Shown here: piece after piece, positions 44,218 through 55,782 of the stretch
Numbering within the stretch: the first letter of the stretch is position 1
Layout of the letters: each line of letters begins with the position of its first letter
Source: Rhodanobacter sp. L36
Lineage (GTDB): Bacteria; Pseudomonadota; Gammaproteobacteria; Xanthomonadales; Rhodanobacteraceae
NCBI RefSeq assembly: GCF_009765755.1
Contig: NZ_LMUV01000002.1
Coordinates: forward strand, 705,693-769,692
DNA length: 64,000 nucleotides
Direction of reading: 5' to 3'
Program-made: the position numbers and the translations under genes
The notes under the pieces: generated by a model
Seen by the model: the letters and a program-made list of their open reading frames with translations, nothing else
Database searches by the model: none
What the model was told of the DNA's origin: nothing

Positions 44218-44411
44218 CGTTCGACTCCTCCAATGACTGTCGGCCAGCATGTGCAACCAGGCCGGCGAACACAAGCCGTGTCGGCGCTGTCTGTAACCCG
44301 TTCGCCGTTGCGGCGCGTCTCATGTGCTGAGACAACGGCTTGCCACGCTTGCGCATCGACCTTATATCCTTGGGGGTGACTTCCCCACTCGCCCCATGCG
44401 GGAATCCGCCG

Positions 44412-47400
44412 ATGCCGGCCCACGATGTGCTCGCCGATTTCCACCCCGCCGTTGCTGCCTGGTTCCGCGGCAGTTTTGCTGCGCCCACCTCGGCGCAAAT
44501 GCAGGCGTGGCCGTCGATACGCGCCGGCCGGCACACGCTGGTGGCGGCGCCGACTGGTTCGGGCAAGACGCTGACCGCGTTTCTCGCGGCCATCGACGAA
44601 CTGGTGTGCGAGGGCGTGGCGAACGGTGGCGTGCTGCCGAGCACCACTTCGGTGATTTACATCTCGCCGTTGAAGGCGTTGTCGAACGACATCCACATCA
44701 ACCTCGAAGCGCCGCTGGAAGGCATCCGCGCGGAGCTCGAAAAACTCGGCCTGCCCGACGTGGCGATTCGCACCGCCGTGCGCACCGGCGACACGCCGCA
44801 AGCGGAACGCACGCTGCTGCGCAAGCAGCCGCCGCACATCCTGGTGACCACGCCGGAATCGCTGTACGTGCTGCTCAGTTCGGCATCCGGCCGCACGATG
44901 CTTGCCGGTGCACGCTCGGTCATCGTCGACGAAATCCACGCGATCGCCAACAGCAAGCGCGGCTCGCATCTGGCGTTGTCGCTGGAGCGACTGGAGTCGC
45001 TCTGCCGTCGCCGCCTGCTGCGAATCGGCCTTTCCGCCACGCAGAAACCCATCGATGAAGTCGCGCGTTTTCTGGTCGGCGGCCAGTCGGCCTTGCCTGT
45101 TCTTTCCCACGAGGCACAGCTCGCTGCGCGGCATGCTGTCGAACAGTCCGCGCCACGCACGCACGACCTGTTTGCGCGACCGACGATTTGCGCGAAGCCG
45201 GCGGATCACCTGCTCAGCGACGCTGAAAAAGAAGCCTGCACGATCATCGATGTCGGCCACACGCGTTCGCGCGACCTGGCCATCGAAGTGCCGCCGGTGC
45301 CGCTCGAATCGGTGATGTCCAACGATTGCTGGGAGCTCGTCTACAACCGGCTCGCGCAACTGGTGCAGACACACAGCACCACGCTGATCTTCGTCAACAC
45401 GCGGCGCATGGCCGAGCGCGCGGCGCGGCATTTGTCCGAACGGCTCGGCCGCGAAGTGGTCGCCGCGCATCACGGCAGCCTGTCGAAAGAATTGCGGCTG
45501 GACGCCGAACAACGGCTCAAGCGCGGCGAACTGTCGGTGCTGGTCGCTACCGCGTCGCTCGAACTCGGTATCGACATCGGCGATGTCGACCTGGTCTGCC
45601 AACTTGGTTCGCCGCGATCGATCGCCGCGTTCCTGCAGCGCGCGGGACGTTCCGGCCATAGTATCGACGGCACGCCGAAAGCGCGGCTGTTTCCTGCCAC
45701 GCGCGACGATCTCGCCGAATGCACCGCACTGCTCGACTGCGTGCGACGCGGTGAACTGGATGCGTTGATCCTGCCGCCACAACCGCTCGATGTTCTCGCG
45801 CAACAGATCGTCGCGGAAATCTCCTGCCTCGAATGGGACGAGGATGCGTTGTATGCGCTGGTGCGTCGAGCGCATCCGTATCGCAACCTGCAACGCGCGG
45901 AATTCGACGCGGTGGTGCGCATGCTCGCCGAAGGATTCACCACGCGGCAAGGCGCGAAATCCGCCTACATCCATCACGACGCGGTTCATCGCCAGTTGCG
46001 TCCCAAACGCGCCGCGCGGCTCACCGCGTTGATGTCCGGCGGCACCATCCCCGACACCGCCGACTACAAGGTCGTGCTGGAGCCGCAGGCGATTATTGTC
46101 GGCACGGTGAACGAGGATTTTGCGGTCGAGAGCATGGCCGGCGACATCTTCCAGCTCGGCAACACCAGCTATCGCATCCAGCGCGTCGAGCGCGATCGAC
46201 TGCGCGTGGAAGACGCGCACGGCGCGCCGCCGAGCATTCCGTTCTGGCTGGGTGAAGCGCCGGGACGCAGCAAGGAATTGTCATTCGGCGTGTCGCGACT
46301 GCGCGATGACATTTCCGCGCGACTCGACGCCGGTGGCATTCCAGCCGCACAAGCCTGGCTGACCAACGAACTCGGGTTGTGCGAGGCGGCGGCGCAGCAA
46401 CTCGTCGATTACCTCGCACGCGCGAAGGCCGCGCTTGGCGTGTTGCCGACGCAACATACGCTGGTGCTGGAACGCTTCTTCGACGAATCCGGCGGCACCC
46501 AACTGGTGGTGCATACGCCGTGGGGCAGCCGCATCAATCGCGCGTGGGGTCTCGCGCTGCGCAAGCGTTTTTGTCGCCAGTTCAATTTCGAATTGCAGGC
46601 CGCGGCGACGGAAGACGCGATCGTGCTTTCGCTGTCGACCAGCCACAGTTTTCCGCTGATCGAAGTGGCCGGTTATCTGCATTCCAACACCGCCGAACAT
46701 GTACTGATCCAGGCGCTGCTGGATGCGCCGCTGTTTCCCGCGCGCTGGCGCTGGAATGCGGTGACCGCGCTGGCGCTGCCACGTTTCATGGGTGGCAAGA
46801 AAACGCCGCCGCCGCTGCAGCGGATGAAGAGCGAGGATCTGCTCGCCGCGGTGTTCCCCGATCAGGTCGCGTGTCTGGAGAACATCGTCGGCGAACGCGA
46901 GGTGCCCGATCATCCGCTGGTCAACCAGACCATGCACGATTGCCTGCGCGAGGCGATGGACATCGACGGCCTGCTCGACATCCTGCGTGGTCTCGAAAGC
47001 GGCAGCATCGATGTCATAGCGCGCGATCTCACCGCGCCGAGTCCGCTTGCCGCCGAAGTGCTCAACGCCGCGCCGTACGCTTTCCTCGATGACGCGCCGC
47101 TGGAAGAACGCCGCACGCATGCGGTGCAGACACGACGCTGGGGCGATGGCGACAGCGCTGACGACCTCGGCCGGCTGGATCCCGAAGCGATCGCCGCCGT
47201 GCGTGACGAGGCCTGGCCGCAAGTGCGTGATGCCGACGAGATGCACGAAGCGCTGACCGTGCTTGGGTTTGTCACCGCGGGCGAAGTCGAAGCCAACCTC
47301 GGCTGGAACGAACGCCTGCAGACACTGGCGAAGGCCAGTCGCGCCACCTTGCTTGTTGTAGGAGCGCACCCTGTGCGCGAGGGAGTTCCTTGTGTCGTGC

Positions 47401-48971
47401 GCGATCGCCTTCTGCCGGATGACGAAGCGCCGTCGCGCACAGGGTGCGCTCCTACACCCTTCGCGATCTGGACATCTGCCGAGCAATTACCGATATGGCG
47501 CGCGGTGCACGCGAACACCTCCATGCATCCCGCCATCGATGCGCCAACGGCATACGCCAGCCGCAACTGGAGCCGCGAAGACGCCTTGCTCGAACTGGTG
47601 CGTCATCGCTTGTGCGGACTCGGCCCGGTGACGGTTGCCGCACTGACGCGAACGCTGGCCGTCGATCCCGGCGATGTCGAACTCGCCTTGGTCCGGCTGC
47701 AATCCGAAGGCTATGTGATGCAAGGCCGTTTCACCGCGGAGGGCGGCGAAACGGAATGGTGCGAGCGCCATTTGCTGGCGCGCATCCATCGCTACACGAT
47801 CGGCCGTCTGCGTCGCGAAATCGAGCCGGTCAGCCGTCGCCAGCTCATGCGTTTCCTGTTCGACTGGCAGCACGTATCGTCCACGACGAAACTGCAGGGA
47901 CCCGACGCGCTGGCCAACACGCTGGCGCAGCTGGAAGGTTTCGAAGCCGCCGCCGGTGCGTGGGAATCGGAAATCCTGCCGGCCCGCATCACGGATTACT
48001 CCAACAGCTGGCTCGACAGTCTGTGTCGCGCCGGCCGCATCAGCTGGAACCGCCTGCGCGCCGGCGGCGGTGGTGGCGGACCGGTGCGCAGCACGCCGAT
48101 CGTGCTGATGCCGCGTCGTCATCTGGCCATCTGGACGTCCGTTTCCAATAGCGACGACAACCAGCCGCCACTGATTTCATCGCGCGCGCAGATGGTGGCG
48201 GATGCGTTGCGCGAGCAAGGTGCGCTGTTCTTCGACGAGTTGCTGCAGATCACGCATCTGCTGCGCACCGAGCTTGAAGATGCACTCGGCGAACTGGTTG
48301 CCGCCGGCCAGGTGAACGCCGACAGCTTCGCTGGCCTGCGTGCACTGCTGCTGCCGGCTGCCAAGCGTGATGCCAGTCGCCAGCGCCGCCTGCGCAAGCA
48401 CATGCTCAACGGCATCGAGGATGCGGGACGCTGGTCGTTCACGCGTGGTGCGCTGCCATCGACCGAAGCGAAAACATCCGGCGATCCTGACGCGCTGGAA
48501 CACATCGCGCGCAGCTTGCTCCACCGCTACGGCGTAGTGTTCTGGAAATTGCTGGAGCGGGAAGCACCATGGTTGCCTTCGTGGCGCGAGCTGTTGCGCG
48601 TTTACCATCGACTGGAAGCGCGTGGCGAAATCCGCGGCGGACGCTTTGTCGAAGGCCTGGTCGGCGAGCAGTTCGCGCTGCCCGAGGCAATTGGGCCGCT
48701 TCGTGCCGTGCGTCAGCGCGCGGATGACGGCGAGCTGGTGTGCCTGAGCGGCAGCGATCCGCTGAACCTGGTCGGCACCGTGCTGGTTGGCGACAAGGTG
48801 CCGGCGCTGACCAGTTCGCGCGTGCTCTATCGCGATGGTGCACCCATCGCGGCGTTGATCGCGAGCAAGGTTGTGCCGCTGGTCGAGCTATCGACGAGTG
48901 ACACGCAAACGGTGCGGCATGCGTTGCTGCGACATGCCGCACCCCCGGAAGGTTTCCGGGCGGCGAGCTGA
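44412..48971 (+). CDS. lhr: Lhr-type ATP-dependent helicase with an in-frame palindromic insert
   Basis: A 1519-residue superfamily 2 helicase. Motif I is APTGSGKT, motif II DEIH, and motif VI lies in [30 protein letters not shown] marks the second RecA domain. The long C-terminal part with winged helices and an Lhr-like tail gives a length close to that of E. coli Lhr (1538). Lhr enzymes unwind DNA and DNA:RNA hybrids, with a role in repair. Residues about 982-1015 come from a 100-bp palindromic element (47357-47456) that keeps the frame and has no counterpart I know in the family. The ATG at 44412 has GGGAA eight bases upstream. Confidence 0.93.
47357..47456. repeat. REP-like palindromic element inside the lhr coding sequence
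   Basis: Two 24-base arms, 47357-47380 and 47433-47456, are exact inverted copies (starting TGTAGGAGCGCACC) and enclose 52 bases. The arm is of the GTAGGAGCGC type that is scattered between genes in many Xanthomonadales and pseudomonads. I saw no other copy in this window. The element reads through without a stop in the lhr frame. Confidence 0.85.
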
Positions 48972-52851: not shown

Positions 52852-55782
52852 TCAGAACTTGAAGTTCGCGGTCAGGTAGTACTGGCGACCGTTCGTGTAG
52901 AACGCTTCCGGCACCTTGCCGAAACCGAGGCCGGCCTGTGAACCGGAGACGTAGTAGCGCAGCGTCGGGTTGTTGAGGTTCATCGCGTCGAACGAGAAGC
53001 TCAAATGCTCGTTGACCGTGTAGCCGAGCGAGAGCGACAGGTAGCCTGCGCCTGCCTGGTAGTAAGGCAGCAGCGGCATGGTGTTGCCGAGTCCGCCGGT
53101 GGTCACCGGCATCATGCCGTCGTAGAACGAGGAGCGGTACGTGTAATTGATGCGTGCGTTCCACTGCTTGTCTTCGTAGAACGCCGACACGTTGGCCGTG
53201 TTCCTCGAGGTACCGAACAGCGGACGATTGCCTGCGGACTGCTGCGAGCCCTGCGTGCCATCGGCGTTGTAGAGGTACGTGCCGCCTTGCGAGTGGCCGT
53301 TGCTGTAGGTGTAGTTGACCGACGTGCCGAAGTGCTCGCCGATCGGCTGCACCCAGTTCAACTCCACGCCTTTCAGGTTGCCGTTGACGTTGACCGGAAT
53401 GCTGACGAGGTAGCTGTTGTAGACCGGCGTGTGATTGGGGTTGTCCTTGTTGCCGTTCTCGGTCAGGTAGCTGTTGAGATACGTCCCCGTGGTGGTGCCG
53501 TAGTCGTAGTAGTTGTTCAGATCCATCGCGTAGACGCTGGCCGACAACAGGCCACGCTCGGAGTAGTACCACTCCAGCGACGCGTCGAAGTTGGTCGAGA
53601 GAATCGGCTTCAGGCGCGGATTCGGACCGGTGCCGGAGCCCACGCCACCGGCCGACTGCGGGTCGCTCAGAGACAGGAAGCCGGCCAGCTGACCATAGTC
53701 CTGACGGGTGAGCGTCTGCGAGGCGGCGAAGCGCGAGATCAGGCTGCCGTCATCGTTCAAGTTGAACTTGAGGTTGAAGCTCGGCAGCACCTTGCCGTAG
53801 TGATGGTTGTAGTAGTTCCAGTACCAGCCGCCCGGATAGAACGCCGAAGGCGGCGTGCCCGGGGCCGTCTTGGCTTCCTGTTGCGATGGCGCGGTATAGC
53901 CGATGTCCTCGGTGGTGCTGATATAGCGCAGGCCGGCGTTGCCGCTCCAGCGATCACCGGCAAAATTCACCTGCATGTAGAGGGCGTCGTTCTTCTCCGA
54001 CATGGCATAAATGTCATTCGGATAGAAACGCGAGGTACCCGGATCGTTGGTTACCACCCGGTTCGCATACTTGTCGTTCAACTGTGCCAGCTGGGCAGGC
54101 GTCCAGTACCAGATACCGCCCGGCATCTGGCCCACGTTGAGGTCGCCGGCGAAGCCACCGGGATAGTTGTTGCTGCTGGTGGGCCAGATGGTGGCGTTCG
54201 GAGCAGTCGAGATGTCGGTGGCAAAGTTCGGACCCTGCGCCACAGCCGTCGGGCTGTCGTGCGTGTGCTTGGCATAGCGTCCGCCGAACTGCAGCGAGGA
54301 CAGCGGGCCGGCATCATCGAAATCGAACTCGCCGTCGGCCTGGAACCAGTGTTCCTTGTCGATCACGTGGACGCCCTGGTCACCGAAGATCCAGTCGAGG
54401 CCGACGGTGGCGGGGTTGTAGACGCTGTTGTTGCCGCCCAGCGTCCAGTTCAGCGGCTTACCCAGACCATTCATCGAATAGCTGGCGCCCTGGCCGTAGC
54501 CGGTGTCCATCTCCATGACGTCCTGGGTCGGCGTGTTGCCGGTGCCGCGGGTGTAGCCGCCCTGAAACTTGAAGTCGAGGTTCTGGGTGGCTTTCCAGTC
54601 CGCGTCCAGCGTGACGTACGCGCTGGACTCGCTCTCGCCCGGACGCGAGATCATGTCGTAGATGCCCTGCGACACGCCGGGCTGTGCTGCCTCTGTCGCG
54701 CTGGTCAGCACGTTGCCGTCCCGGGTGTAGCTGGTGAGCACGTCGCCCGGCAGCTTGTCACGCAGGCGCAGCATGTAGTTGCGGTTGTAGTCGGTGGCGT
54801 CCATCTTGGAATAGAAGCCATCAAGGTTGAACGTCAGGTTGTCCAGCGCCTTCCACTCGAGGTCAATCGATGCACCCTTGCGCTTGCGCTCCTGGGTGAA
54901 CAGCGCCGCGCCGGGCAGGTTGGGGTAGAACACGCCGGTGCTGGCGCTGCCGGGCCGGGCCGGGCCGAGGCCCAGCTGCGTGGCTACGGCCGAACCGGTC
55001 GGGATGTACGAATAGCCAAGCATTTCCTGGCCATCGCGCTGCAGGCTGCGTTCTTCGTAGAACCCCTGCAGCATCACGCCGAAGGTACTGTCGCTGTTCT
55101 TCCAGTTGACCAGCCCGTTGAACTGCGGCTTGGCGTCCTTCGGCAGGTCGGAATACACGCCGCCCACGCTGGCTTCAGCCGAAAAAGGCTTGGCGAATTC
55201 CAGCGGCTTGCGCGTGATGATGTCGATCGAGCCCGCAGCGCCGCCTTCCAGCAAGCTGGCTTCGGAACCCTTGTGCACCACGACCTGGCTCACGATTTCC
55301 GATGGGAACATGGCGTAGCTGACGCTGCGGCTGCCGCCGCCACCGGTGATGAACCAGTCGCCCGAGGCGACCGTATGACCGTTGAGCGTGGTCAGGGTGA
55401 GCGAGGGCGCACTGCCGCGAATGCTGGCGCGATCGGCTTCGTCGAAGCCACCTTCGGCGCCGGCCGCGTCGGAGATATTCACACCCGGCAGCTGCGCGAT
55501 GGTATCGGCCACGTTCTTGGCTGGCAGCTTGCCGATGTCTTCGGCGGAAACCACCTCGATGTGCGAGACGGATGACTGCTTGGTGTCGAGCGACAGCTGC
55601 TGACTTTCGCGGATGCCGTGGACGGTGACGGTATTAAGCGTCGTCGCGTCCTTGGTCTTGGGCTTGCCGTCATTCTGCTGCGTCTGACTGGTGGGCTGAG
55701 TACTGTCCTGGGCGCTGATCGCACCGGACATACACAGGCTGGTGACGATGCTCGCGGCAAGTAGTGTCTTGCGGTAATTCAT
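52852..55782 (-). CDS. TonB-dependent receptor, Xanthomonas/Caulobacter type
   Basis: A 976-residue outer membrane receptor. The signal peptide covers residues 1-24 (SIVTSLCMSGAISAQD). The plug domain begins near residue 55 (VTVHGIRESQQLSLDTKQSS, VVSAEDIGKLPAKNVADTIA, QLPGVNISDAAGAEGG), which is the form typical of the large TonB-Xanth-Caul subfamily used for oligosaccharide uptake. The barrel runs to the end QYYLTANFKF. The strong GGGGAGGA is placed eight bases before the ATG. With GH20, the kinase and the transporter it probably imports N-acetylglucosamine oligomers; this is an inference from neighbours. Confidence 0.94.
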   Translation of the reverse strand: MNYRKTLLAASIVTSLCMSGAISAQDSTQPTSQTQQNDGKPKTKDATTLNTVTVHGIRESQQLSLDTKQSSVSHIEVVSAEDIGKLPAKNVADTIAQLPGVNISDAAGAEGGFDEADRASIRGSAPSLTLTTLNGHTVASGDWFITGGGGSRSVSYAMFPSEIVSQVVVHKGSEASLLEGGAAGSIDIITRKPLEFAKPFSAEASVGGVYSDLPKDAKPQFNGLVNWKNSDSTFGVMLQGFYEERSLQRDGQEMLGYSYIPTGSAVATQLGLGPARPGSASTGVFYPNLPGAALFTQERKRKGASIDLEWKALDNLTFNLDGFYSKMDATDYNRNYMLRLRDKLPGDVLTSYTRDGNVLTSATEAAQPGVSQGIYDMISRPGESESSAYVTLDADWKATQNLDFKFQGGYTRGTGNTPTQDVMEMDTGYGQGASYSMNGLGKPLNWTLGGNNSVYNPATVGLDWIFGDQGVHVIDKEHWFQADGEFDFDDAGPLSSLQFGGRYAKHTHDSPTAVAQGPNFATDISTAPNATIWPTSSNNYPGGFAGDLNVGQMPGGIWYWTPAQLAQLNDKYANRVVTNDPGTSRFYPNDIYAMSEKNDALYMQVNFAGDRWSGNAGLRYISTTEDIGYTAPSQQEAKTAPGTPPSAFYPGGWYWNYYNHHYGKVLPSFNLKFNLNDDGSLISRFAASQTLTRQDYGQLAGFLSLSDPQSAGGVGSGTGPNPRLKPILSTNFDASLEWYYSERGLLSASVYAMDLNNYYDYGTTTGTYLNSYLTENGNKDNPNHTPVYNSYLVSIPVNVNGNLKGVELNWVQPIGEHFGTSVNYTYSNGHSQGGTYLYNADGTQGSQQSAGNRPLFGTSRNTANVSAFYEDKQWNARINYTYRSSFYDGMMPVTTGGLGNTMPLLPYYQAGAGYLSLSLGYTVNEHLSFSFDAMNLNNPTLRYYVSGSQAGLGFGKVPEAFYTNGRQYYLTANFKF

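Follow-up and report, generated by a model that had tools for sequence, protein, structure and literature searches.

The sequence analysed here (the window) is a stretch of 64,000 nucleotides (nt) from the soil bacterium Rhodanobacter sp. L36 (contig NZ_LMUV01000002.1, positions 705,693 to 769,692 of the forward strand). It includes the gene lhr, encoding a large helicase-related protein that acts in DNA repair, and this gene carries in frame a pair of inverted repetitive extragenic palindromic (REP) sequences, a so-called REPIN. The locus, in window coordinates, is composed as follows:

44412..48971, + strand: lhr, large helicase-related protein (from Pfam domains and the open reading frame; likely ATG start, the frame itself opening at TTG 44340)
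47357..47456, no strand assigned: REPIN, in frame, encoding about 33 residues (from repeat search and folds)
47358..47380, + strand: left REP GTAGGAGCGCACCCTGTGCGCGA, a hairpin by itself (from pattern search and fold)
47381..47432, + strand: REPIN loop, 52 nt (from extraction of REPIN loops)
47433..47455, - strand: right REP, same sequence as the left REP on the opposite strand (from pattern search and fold)

An earlier note on this DNA had described two exact 24-base inverted arms around a 52-base spacer inside lhr, and this description is exact: the 24 nt at 47357-47380 pair without mismatch with those at 47433-47456, and the two arms are separated by 52 nt. An inverted-repeat search within 47200-47600 returned a single repeat, 47357-47383 / 47430-47456 (27 nt, 96% complementary). 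Overlooked in that note was that each 24-nt arm also folds as a hairpin of its own (GCGCAC-CCT-GTGCGC, fold of a single arm), and the element therefore consists of two GTAG-ended REPs facing each other. GTAG is found at both outer ends, with a GTAG..CTAC span of 98 nt, as in a REPIN. At the RNA level, positions 47350-47463 fold with -69.8 kcal/mol (z -7.3 relative to shuffles), both arms pairing into one long hairpin. The lhr frame is open across the element, from TTG 44340 to 48971, and contains no stop; the insert corresponds to residues 982-1015 counted from the likely ATG at 44412, the same numbers as given earlier, or to about 1006-1039 counted from the TTG. The 52-nt loop exceeds the five other loops extracted in the L36 genome (20-33 nt). 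A known structured RNA was not recognised, with no Rfam match over the gathering score and sub-threshold microRNA matches only. An assembly artefact was ruled out because this element type is present at the identical position in seven other assemblies.

A search with the pattern GTAGGAGCGCNNNNTGTGCGC gave 35 matches in the 3.98 Mb L36 genome and none when the pattern was reversed; together with the fold shuffles, this control rules out a chance origin of the element. The bare 10-mer GTAGGAGCGC, with one mismatch allowed, was no more frequent in the window than expected (5 matches versus 5.3). The 35 exact REPs lie at 26 distinct sites, of which lhr is the only one testing as intragenic, in line with the earlier proposal of a REP-type element whose copies lie mostly outside genes. 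Several other REPs were considered as intragenic and dropped: L028 lies immediately before a release-factor gene, L020 is intergenic, L025 falls in an open reading frame (ORF) that looks antisense and has no Pfam matches, and L005 and L007 are upstream of the domain start. At L020, the gene preceding the REPIN takes its TAG stop from the element, a situation already described for other GTAG REPs. The gene for a REP-associated tyrosine transposase (RAYT), which the earlier note had suggested looking for, was found at C4:1534491-1535096 with REP copies on both sides (NF047646 1-146/146, E 5e-39); in the surrounding region (L188, G000:C4:1533000-1537000) it appears as a RAYT gene of ~170 codons flanked on both sides by REPs.

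The exact REP 21-mer was present in 22 of the 41 genomes searched, all of them Rhodanobacter. Eight genomes (G000, G002, G004, G008, G010, G011, G013 and G020) carry the window's REPIN type in lhr, and each of these contains 14 to 359 exact 21-mers. Nine further genomes (G007, G009, G014, G016, G018, G019, G021, G022 and G023) have 0-3 of them and no such REPIN in lhr.

The Pfam domains of the window Lhr are DEAD, Helicase_C, WH_Lhr, DEAD_assoc, WH3_Lhr and WH4_Lhr, the composition of the bacterial long form; with the NCBIfam equivalog models for long helicases, the protein scores below their cut-offs. Between fixed anchors, it has 59 residues where L104 has 24 and L108, L111 and L112 have 27. 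Of the relatives sampled, L104 is the closest, with 92% identity over 888 columns. The element is thus an insert, as had been claimed; the frame is kept and the host protein is conserved. Neither of the two observations that the earlier note named as refuting it was made: relatives without the element lack the residues, and its arms are common elsewhere in the genome. The ratio of nonsynonymous to synonymous substitution rates (dN/dS) was 0.08 for the window versus L104 (888 codons) and 0.08-0.18 across seven pairs, so that Lhr is, as judged by codon comparison, under purifying selection. A pseudogene was ruled out by the open ORF, the presence of the domains and the dN/dS of 0.08 versus L104. 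A second Lhr-like helicase ORF of 947 codons (L095, G000:C4:551406-553067) is 33-38% identical to parts of the helicase core.

In an AlphaFold2 model of the Lhr C-terminal domain (mean predicted local distance difference test score, pLDDT, 79), the insert is a low-confidence loop (model residues 148-182), with pLDDT below 50 at model residues 152-178, between strands 143-148 and 182-187. This model matches the C-terminal domain of Mycobacterium smegmatis Lhr (7lhl, E 1.8e-22) and also AlkX/AlkZ glycosylases. In the sequence alignment, the insert falls within a stretch of 7lhl that is unaligned, between residues 936 and 995. For Escherichia coli Lhr, uracil-DNA glycosylase activity is reported for the C-terminal domain in the part of PMC10953399 considered here.

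The same loop was compared in 80 Lhr loci plus the window; these loci are the best 80 of 545 relatives and lean to close kin, and the types of element were distinguished by eye. At the insert site, 27 of the 81 sequences, all open through the insert, have palindromic elements, which are of at least four kinds. The window's REPIN type accounts for eight full copies and one truncated copy (L153). A GTAGGAGCGGCTTCAGCCGC-type REPIN (GTAG/GTGG) occupies the loop in two, Rhodanobacter C03 and T12-5, and a CCCTCTCCCC..GGGGAGAGGG..GGGGTGAGGGG element in eight, of which seven are Dyella. Related palindromes are found in six more, and lone other palindromes in Luteimonas gilva (somewhat similar to that of C03 and T12-5) and in a Lysobacter metagenome-assembled genome. 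In several Lysobacter and a few others, the loop is above minimum length with no obvious palindrome, and in G032, from another family of the order, a further palindrome type occurs at the same place. The earlier idea of a recent, tolerated insertion is thus too narrow: since the loop is occupied in many species by the window's element and by other palindromes, it is a recurrent landing site and not a one-off. Parsimony over the 81 rows required at least 18 changes when presence alone was scored, at least 7 for the window's type and at least 20 with all states distinguished, on a quick gene tree with 19 weakly supported forks.

Comparison of L107 (4506-4571), from Rhodanobacter C03, with the empty L108 reveals a REPIN of 66 nt cleanly inserted in lhr. 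GAAA is found on either side of it, which may be a short target duplication or a coincidence. In G023 (L065), the reading frame of lhr is interrupted near window residues 1450-1461, leaving two frames; this reflects either a sequencing error or a broken gene. In a wider sample, matches were obtained in 112 of 160 genomes of the order and in 34 of 151 of the class; these were judged by match spans, and 20 stretches were taken, of which 11 were viewed (L195 among them in the wrong frame). Palindromic inserts were seen in G115, G046, G109, G070, G063 and G084, and none in G272 or G307, the two stretches taken from the class outside the order. In G115 (L189), the lhr loop is enlarged in frame by some 400 nt, which consist of palindromes and, after them, a short repetitive Asp-Ala coding tract.

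The full-length alignment revealed four main insertion hot spots in Lhr, at window residues ~256, ~663, ~1011 and ~1372, where the DNA is palindromic in many rows. Besides the loop described above, at ~1011, these are:

45108..45173, + strand: Lhr site ~256, linker between the two RecA-like domains (DEAD / Helicase_C; from alignment, Pfam and model)
46329..46337, + strand: Lhr site ~663, between WH_Lhr and DEAD_assoc (from alignment and Pfam)
48456..48464, + strand: Lhr site ~1372, just before WH4_Lhr (from alignment and Pfam)

At site ~256, the window segment is variable with no obvious palindrome, and palindromes fill it in many relatives. Site ~663 is empty in the window and filled in some relatives; in the N-terminal model (mean pLDDT 67) it is part of a predicted helix, so that this model shows no loop there. 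Contigs end inside lhr near this site in two genomes (L081/L082 of G002; L084/L085 of G008), as if a repeat had broken the assemblies. Site ~1372 is short in the window and filled in many relatives. A second host gene, hrpA, was reached via one intragenic copy in Dyella. In HrpA, a single loop after QELGW is filled repeatedly by in-frame paired palindromes in many Rhodanobacter species and in Dyella. In the HrpA of the L36 genome (L369), this loop is long and no intact palindrome was seen.

To quantify these palindromes, perfect hairpins (stem of 9 or more, loop of 3-10) were counted and compared with the expectation from synonymous-codon shuffles. The Lhr genes of the Rhodanobacter/Dyella set contained 98 perfect hairpins in 51 genes (18.0 expected), and the other Lhr genes, from Lysobacter kin and the remaining Rhodanobacteraceae, 29 in 30 genes (13.3 expected). 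For HrpA, 36 were found in 30 fragments versus 15.3 expected, with at least one anywhere in 23 of the 30. A TonB-receptor control, the Rhodanobacter homologues of window 52855-55782, gave 2 hairpins in 20 genes versus 3.7 expected, one control gene being few.

We also took a census of 219 sites of three element types in 13 genomes, in which a copy was scored as intragenic when an open, coding-like frame was present on both sides. Fifteen copies passed, eight in lhr (L023, L265, L266, L328, L276, L286, L395 and L430) and seven in hrpA (L263, L312, L460, L414, L421, L432 and L440). Gene identity was assigned by Pfam (L276, L286, L312, L328, L395, L414 and L430), by translation (L263 and L460) or by position in the same contig and gene (L265, L266, L421, L432 and L440). 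Seven of the 13 genomes had been chosen for their lhr inserts, the L36 genome came with the finding, G010 was a known lhr carrier, and four D-type genomes were selected with their HrpA loops already known. All positives are therefore ascertained, and the informative figure is 0 of the remaining 204 sites in any other gene, by a test which copies in short genes or within about 420 nt of a gene end escape. Loci were taken for 30 of 359 REPs in G010, 30 of 42 in G332, 5 of 62 in G334, 5 of 118 in G335, 45 of 84 in G336 and 5 of 8 in G339; the other genomes were complete, and ten loci near contig ends or without the pattern were left out. Further ORFs open through the element were not counted, because the codon score of one side or of both was negative, zero or close to zero. 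Of those scanned with Pfam, some had no match (L275, L307, L310, L415 and L441) and others had a domain only downstream of the element (L327, L418, L434 and L425); the remainder were L402, L404, L413, L417 and L423. A looser rerun gave no additional host gene, a weak check in which most known cases were missed too.

Compared among the eight genomes that have the window's REPIN type in lhr, the arms (46 bases) show a mean difference of 1.6%, against 41% at synonymous sites of the same genes. The REPIN loops differ among carriers in sequence and length, and all eight full copies have a length of 2 mod 3 and the same phase. The copies thus either arose after the species had separated or have been renewed.

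Taken together, these results make it likely that the lhr element is a RAYT-associated REPIN translated as a flexible loop of about 33 residues, and one case of recurrent, tolerated and renewed insertion in Lhr and HrpA. Within the C-terminal domain of Lhr, the REPIN, read in frame, would form this loop on the tip of a beta-hairpin. Short mobile palindromes would, in Rhodanobacter, Dyella and some relatives, enter a few loops and linkers, at four sites in Lhr and one in HrpA; copies that preserve the frame would survive because such a loop can lengthen without destroying the helicase, and inserted copies would later be renewed, swapped or partly deleted. RAYT, or recombination between REPINs, may move or renew the copies, and Lhr presumably works with the loop present. 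Tolerated, repeatedly renewed insertion is our default explanation. Several observations nevertheless count against it. Since copies were identified through their arms, intact ones are favoured and arm conservation is biased upward. A length of 2 mod 3 is common among the other REPINs of G010 (8 of 11), with 0 of 5 among the others extracted in the L36 genome. G001, G006, G003 and G024 have 13-49 REPs (26 in G001, 23 in G006 and 49 in G024), yet their lhr lacks the window's REPIN type, and G013 has the REPIN in lhr but no RAYT match in a PF01797 search. In one carrier of the CCCTCTCCCC type (L124/G015; L062), with inserts at two sites, lhr contains a stop near codon 1140, past the loop insert; either the gene is truly broken, or the metagenome assembly has a sequence error there. 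All carriers share one nucleotide as the left boundary of the window's type, which requires common descent with renewal, or site specificity; an identical boundary with new loops fits renewal by REPIN-REPIN recombination or insertion at a preferred nucleotide. Finally, plain tolerance does not predict the restriction to lhr and hrpA.

In a more speculative reading, lhr and hrpA would be privileged hosts in Rhodanobacter, Dyella and relatives, with palindrome families recruited repeatedly to the same coding loops because the message hairpin or the variable peptide loop serves the helicases, for example in a self-sensing control of their level; we regard this as improbable. Much the same holds for the more general proposal that the hairpins are kept for function, either as message hairpins sensed by the encoded helicase or by ribosome quality control (self-regulation), or as peptide loops tuning the enzymes, which we judge rather improbable. 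It would explain why all 15 intragenic copies among the 219 census sites lie in two nucleic-acid helicase genes, why different hairpin families occupy the same loops, the excess of hairpins over synonymous-codon shuffles and the conservation of the arms far beyond that of synonymous sites. Arm conservation, however, is equally expected from recent insertion or renewal, plus the recognition bias, and most census genomes were chosen knowing of such inserts. Moreover, the loop is empty or decayed in many species (it is empty in L104, and the HrpA loop of the L36 genome has no intact palindrome), and element positions and structures vary widely.

A single ancestral REPIN insertion in Rhodanobacter lhr, passively inherited and lost in several lineages, would agree with the boundary nucleotide and reading phase shared by the carriers and with the truncated remnant in L153, and the at least seven changes on the tree could be gains or losses. 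Such an origin is hard to reconcile with arms differing by 1.6% when synonymous sites differ by 41%, with loops that vary in sequence and length, and with other element families at the same site; it holds only jointly with renewal, or if decayed copies went unrecognised, and we consider it very unlikely. The identical left boundary of the eight full copies, the recurrence at fixed loops and the clean insert of L107, flanked by GAAA and absent from L108, could also point to site-directed insertion, with the lhr and hrpA loops offering a sequence or structure favoured by the transposase or by the integration reaction. The chances of this are similarly slight, given that families with different ends use the same loops and that the other REPIN type enters at codons different from those used by the window's type.

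With REPINs, or GTAG REP doublets, and their RAYT, the lhr element shares the GTAG ends, the two inverted REP hairpins, the multiple copies and a RAYT gene with flanking REPs; it differs in that it lies inside a conserved gene and is presumably translated, whereas the other 25 sites of the genome do not test as intragenic. The survey of intragenic GTAG and CGTC REPs (BMC Genomics 2013, PMC3733652) mentions, in its main text, REPs that lie in frame in genes for DNA synthesis and repair and for RNA helicases of O. terrae; it also notes that two Xanthomonas species have different REPs at approximately the same position of recB. In-frame REPs in repair and helicase genes are thus common to both cases; compared with the REPs described in that text, at least four element kinds recur here at one loop, and there are four sites in this gene and a further one in hrpA. 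Neither lhr nor Rhodanobacter is mentioned in this main text, the list of host genes being in Additional file 3, outside this search. Rickettsia palindromic elements (RPEs), the classic example of palindromes in frame, are presented, in the portion of PMC10969869 cited here, as selfish palindromes of ~150 bp inserted in frame in many unrelated protein genes. The mode of insertion is shared, and here several families are involved, found in two helicase genes. Coxiella QMITEs prefer the 3′ ends of repair genes, according to an extract of PMC5896051. In the part of the literature searched, by titles and the beginnings of abstracts, no report was found of palindromes recurring at fixed loops of lhr or hrpA. 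In-frame palindromes are already known, and it is their recurrence at fixed loops of two helicases that makes the lhr REPIN of interest.

In-frame mobile palindromes have so far been regarded mostly as scattered cases; here, several families refill the same loops of two helicases. The empty, full and decayed states in related species constitute a natural experiment on mobile DNA becoming protein. The finding also bears on why DNA-repair and helicase genes are favoured hosts, left as an open remark in the 2013 REP survey, and on how REPINs stay near-perfect as the surrounding gene diverges.

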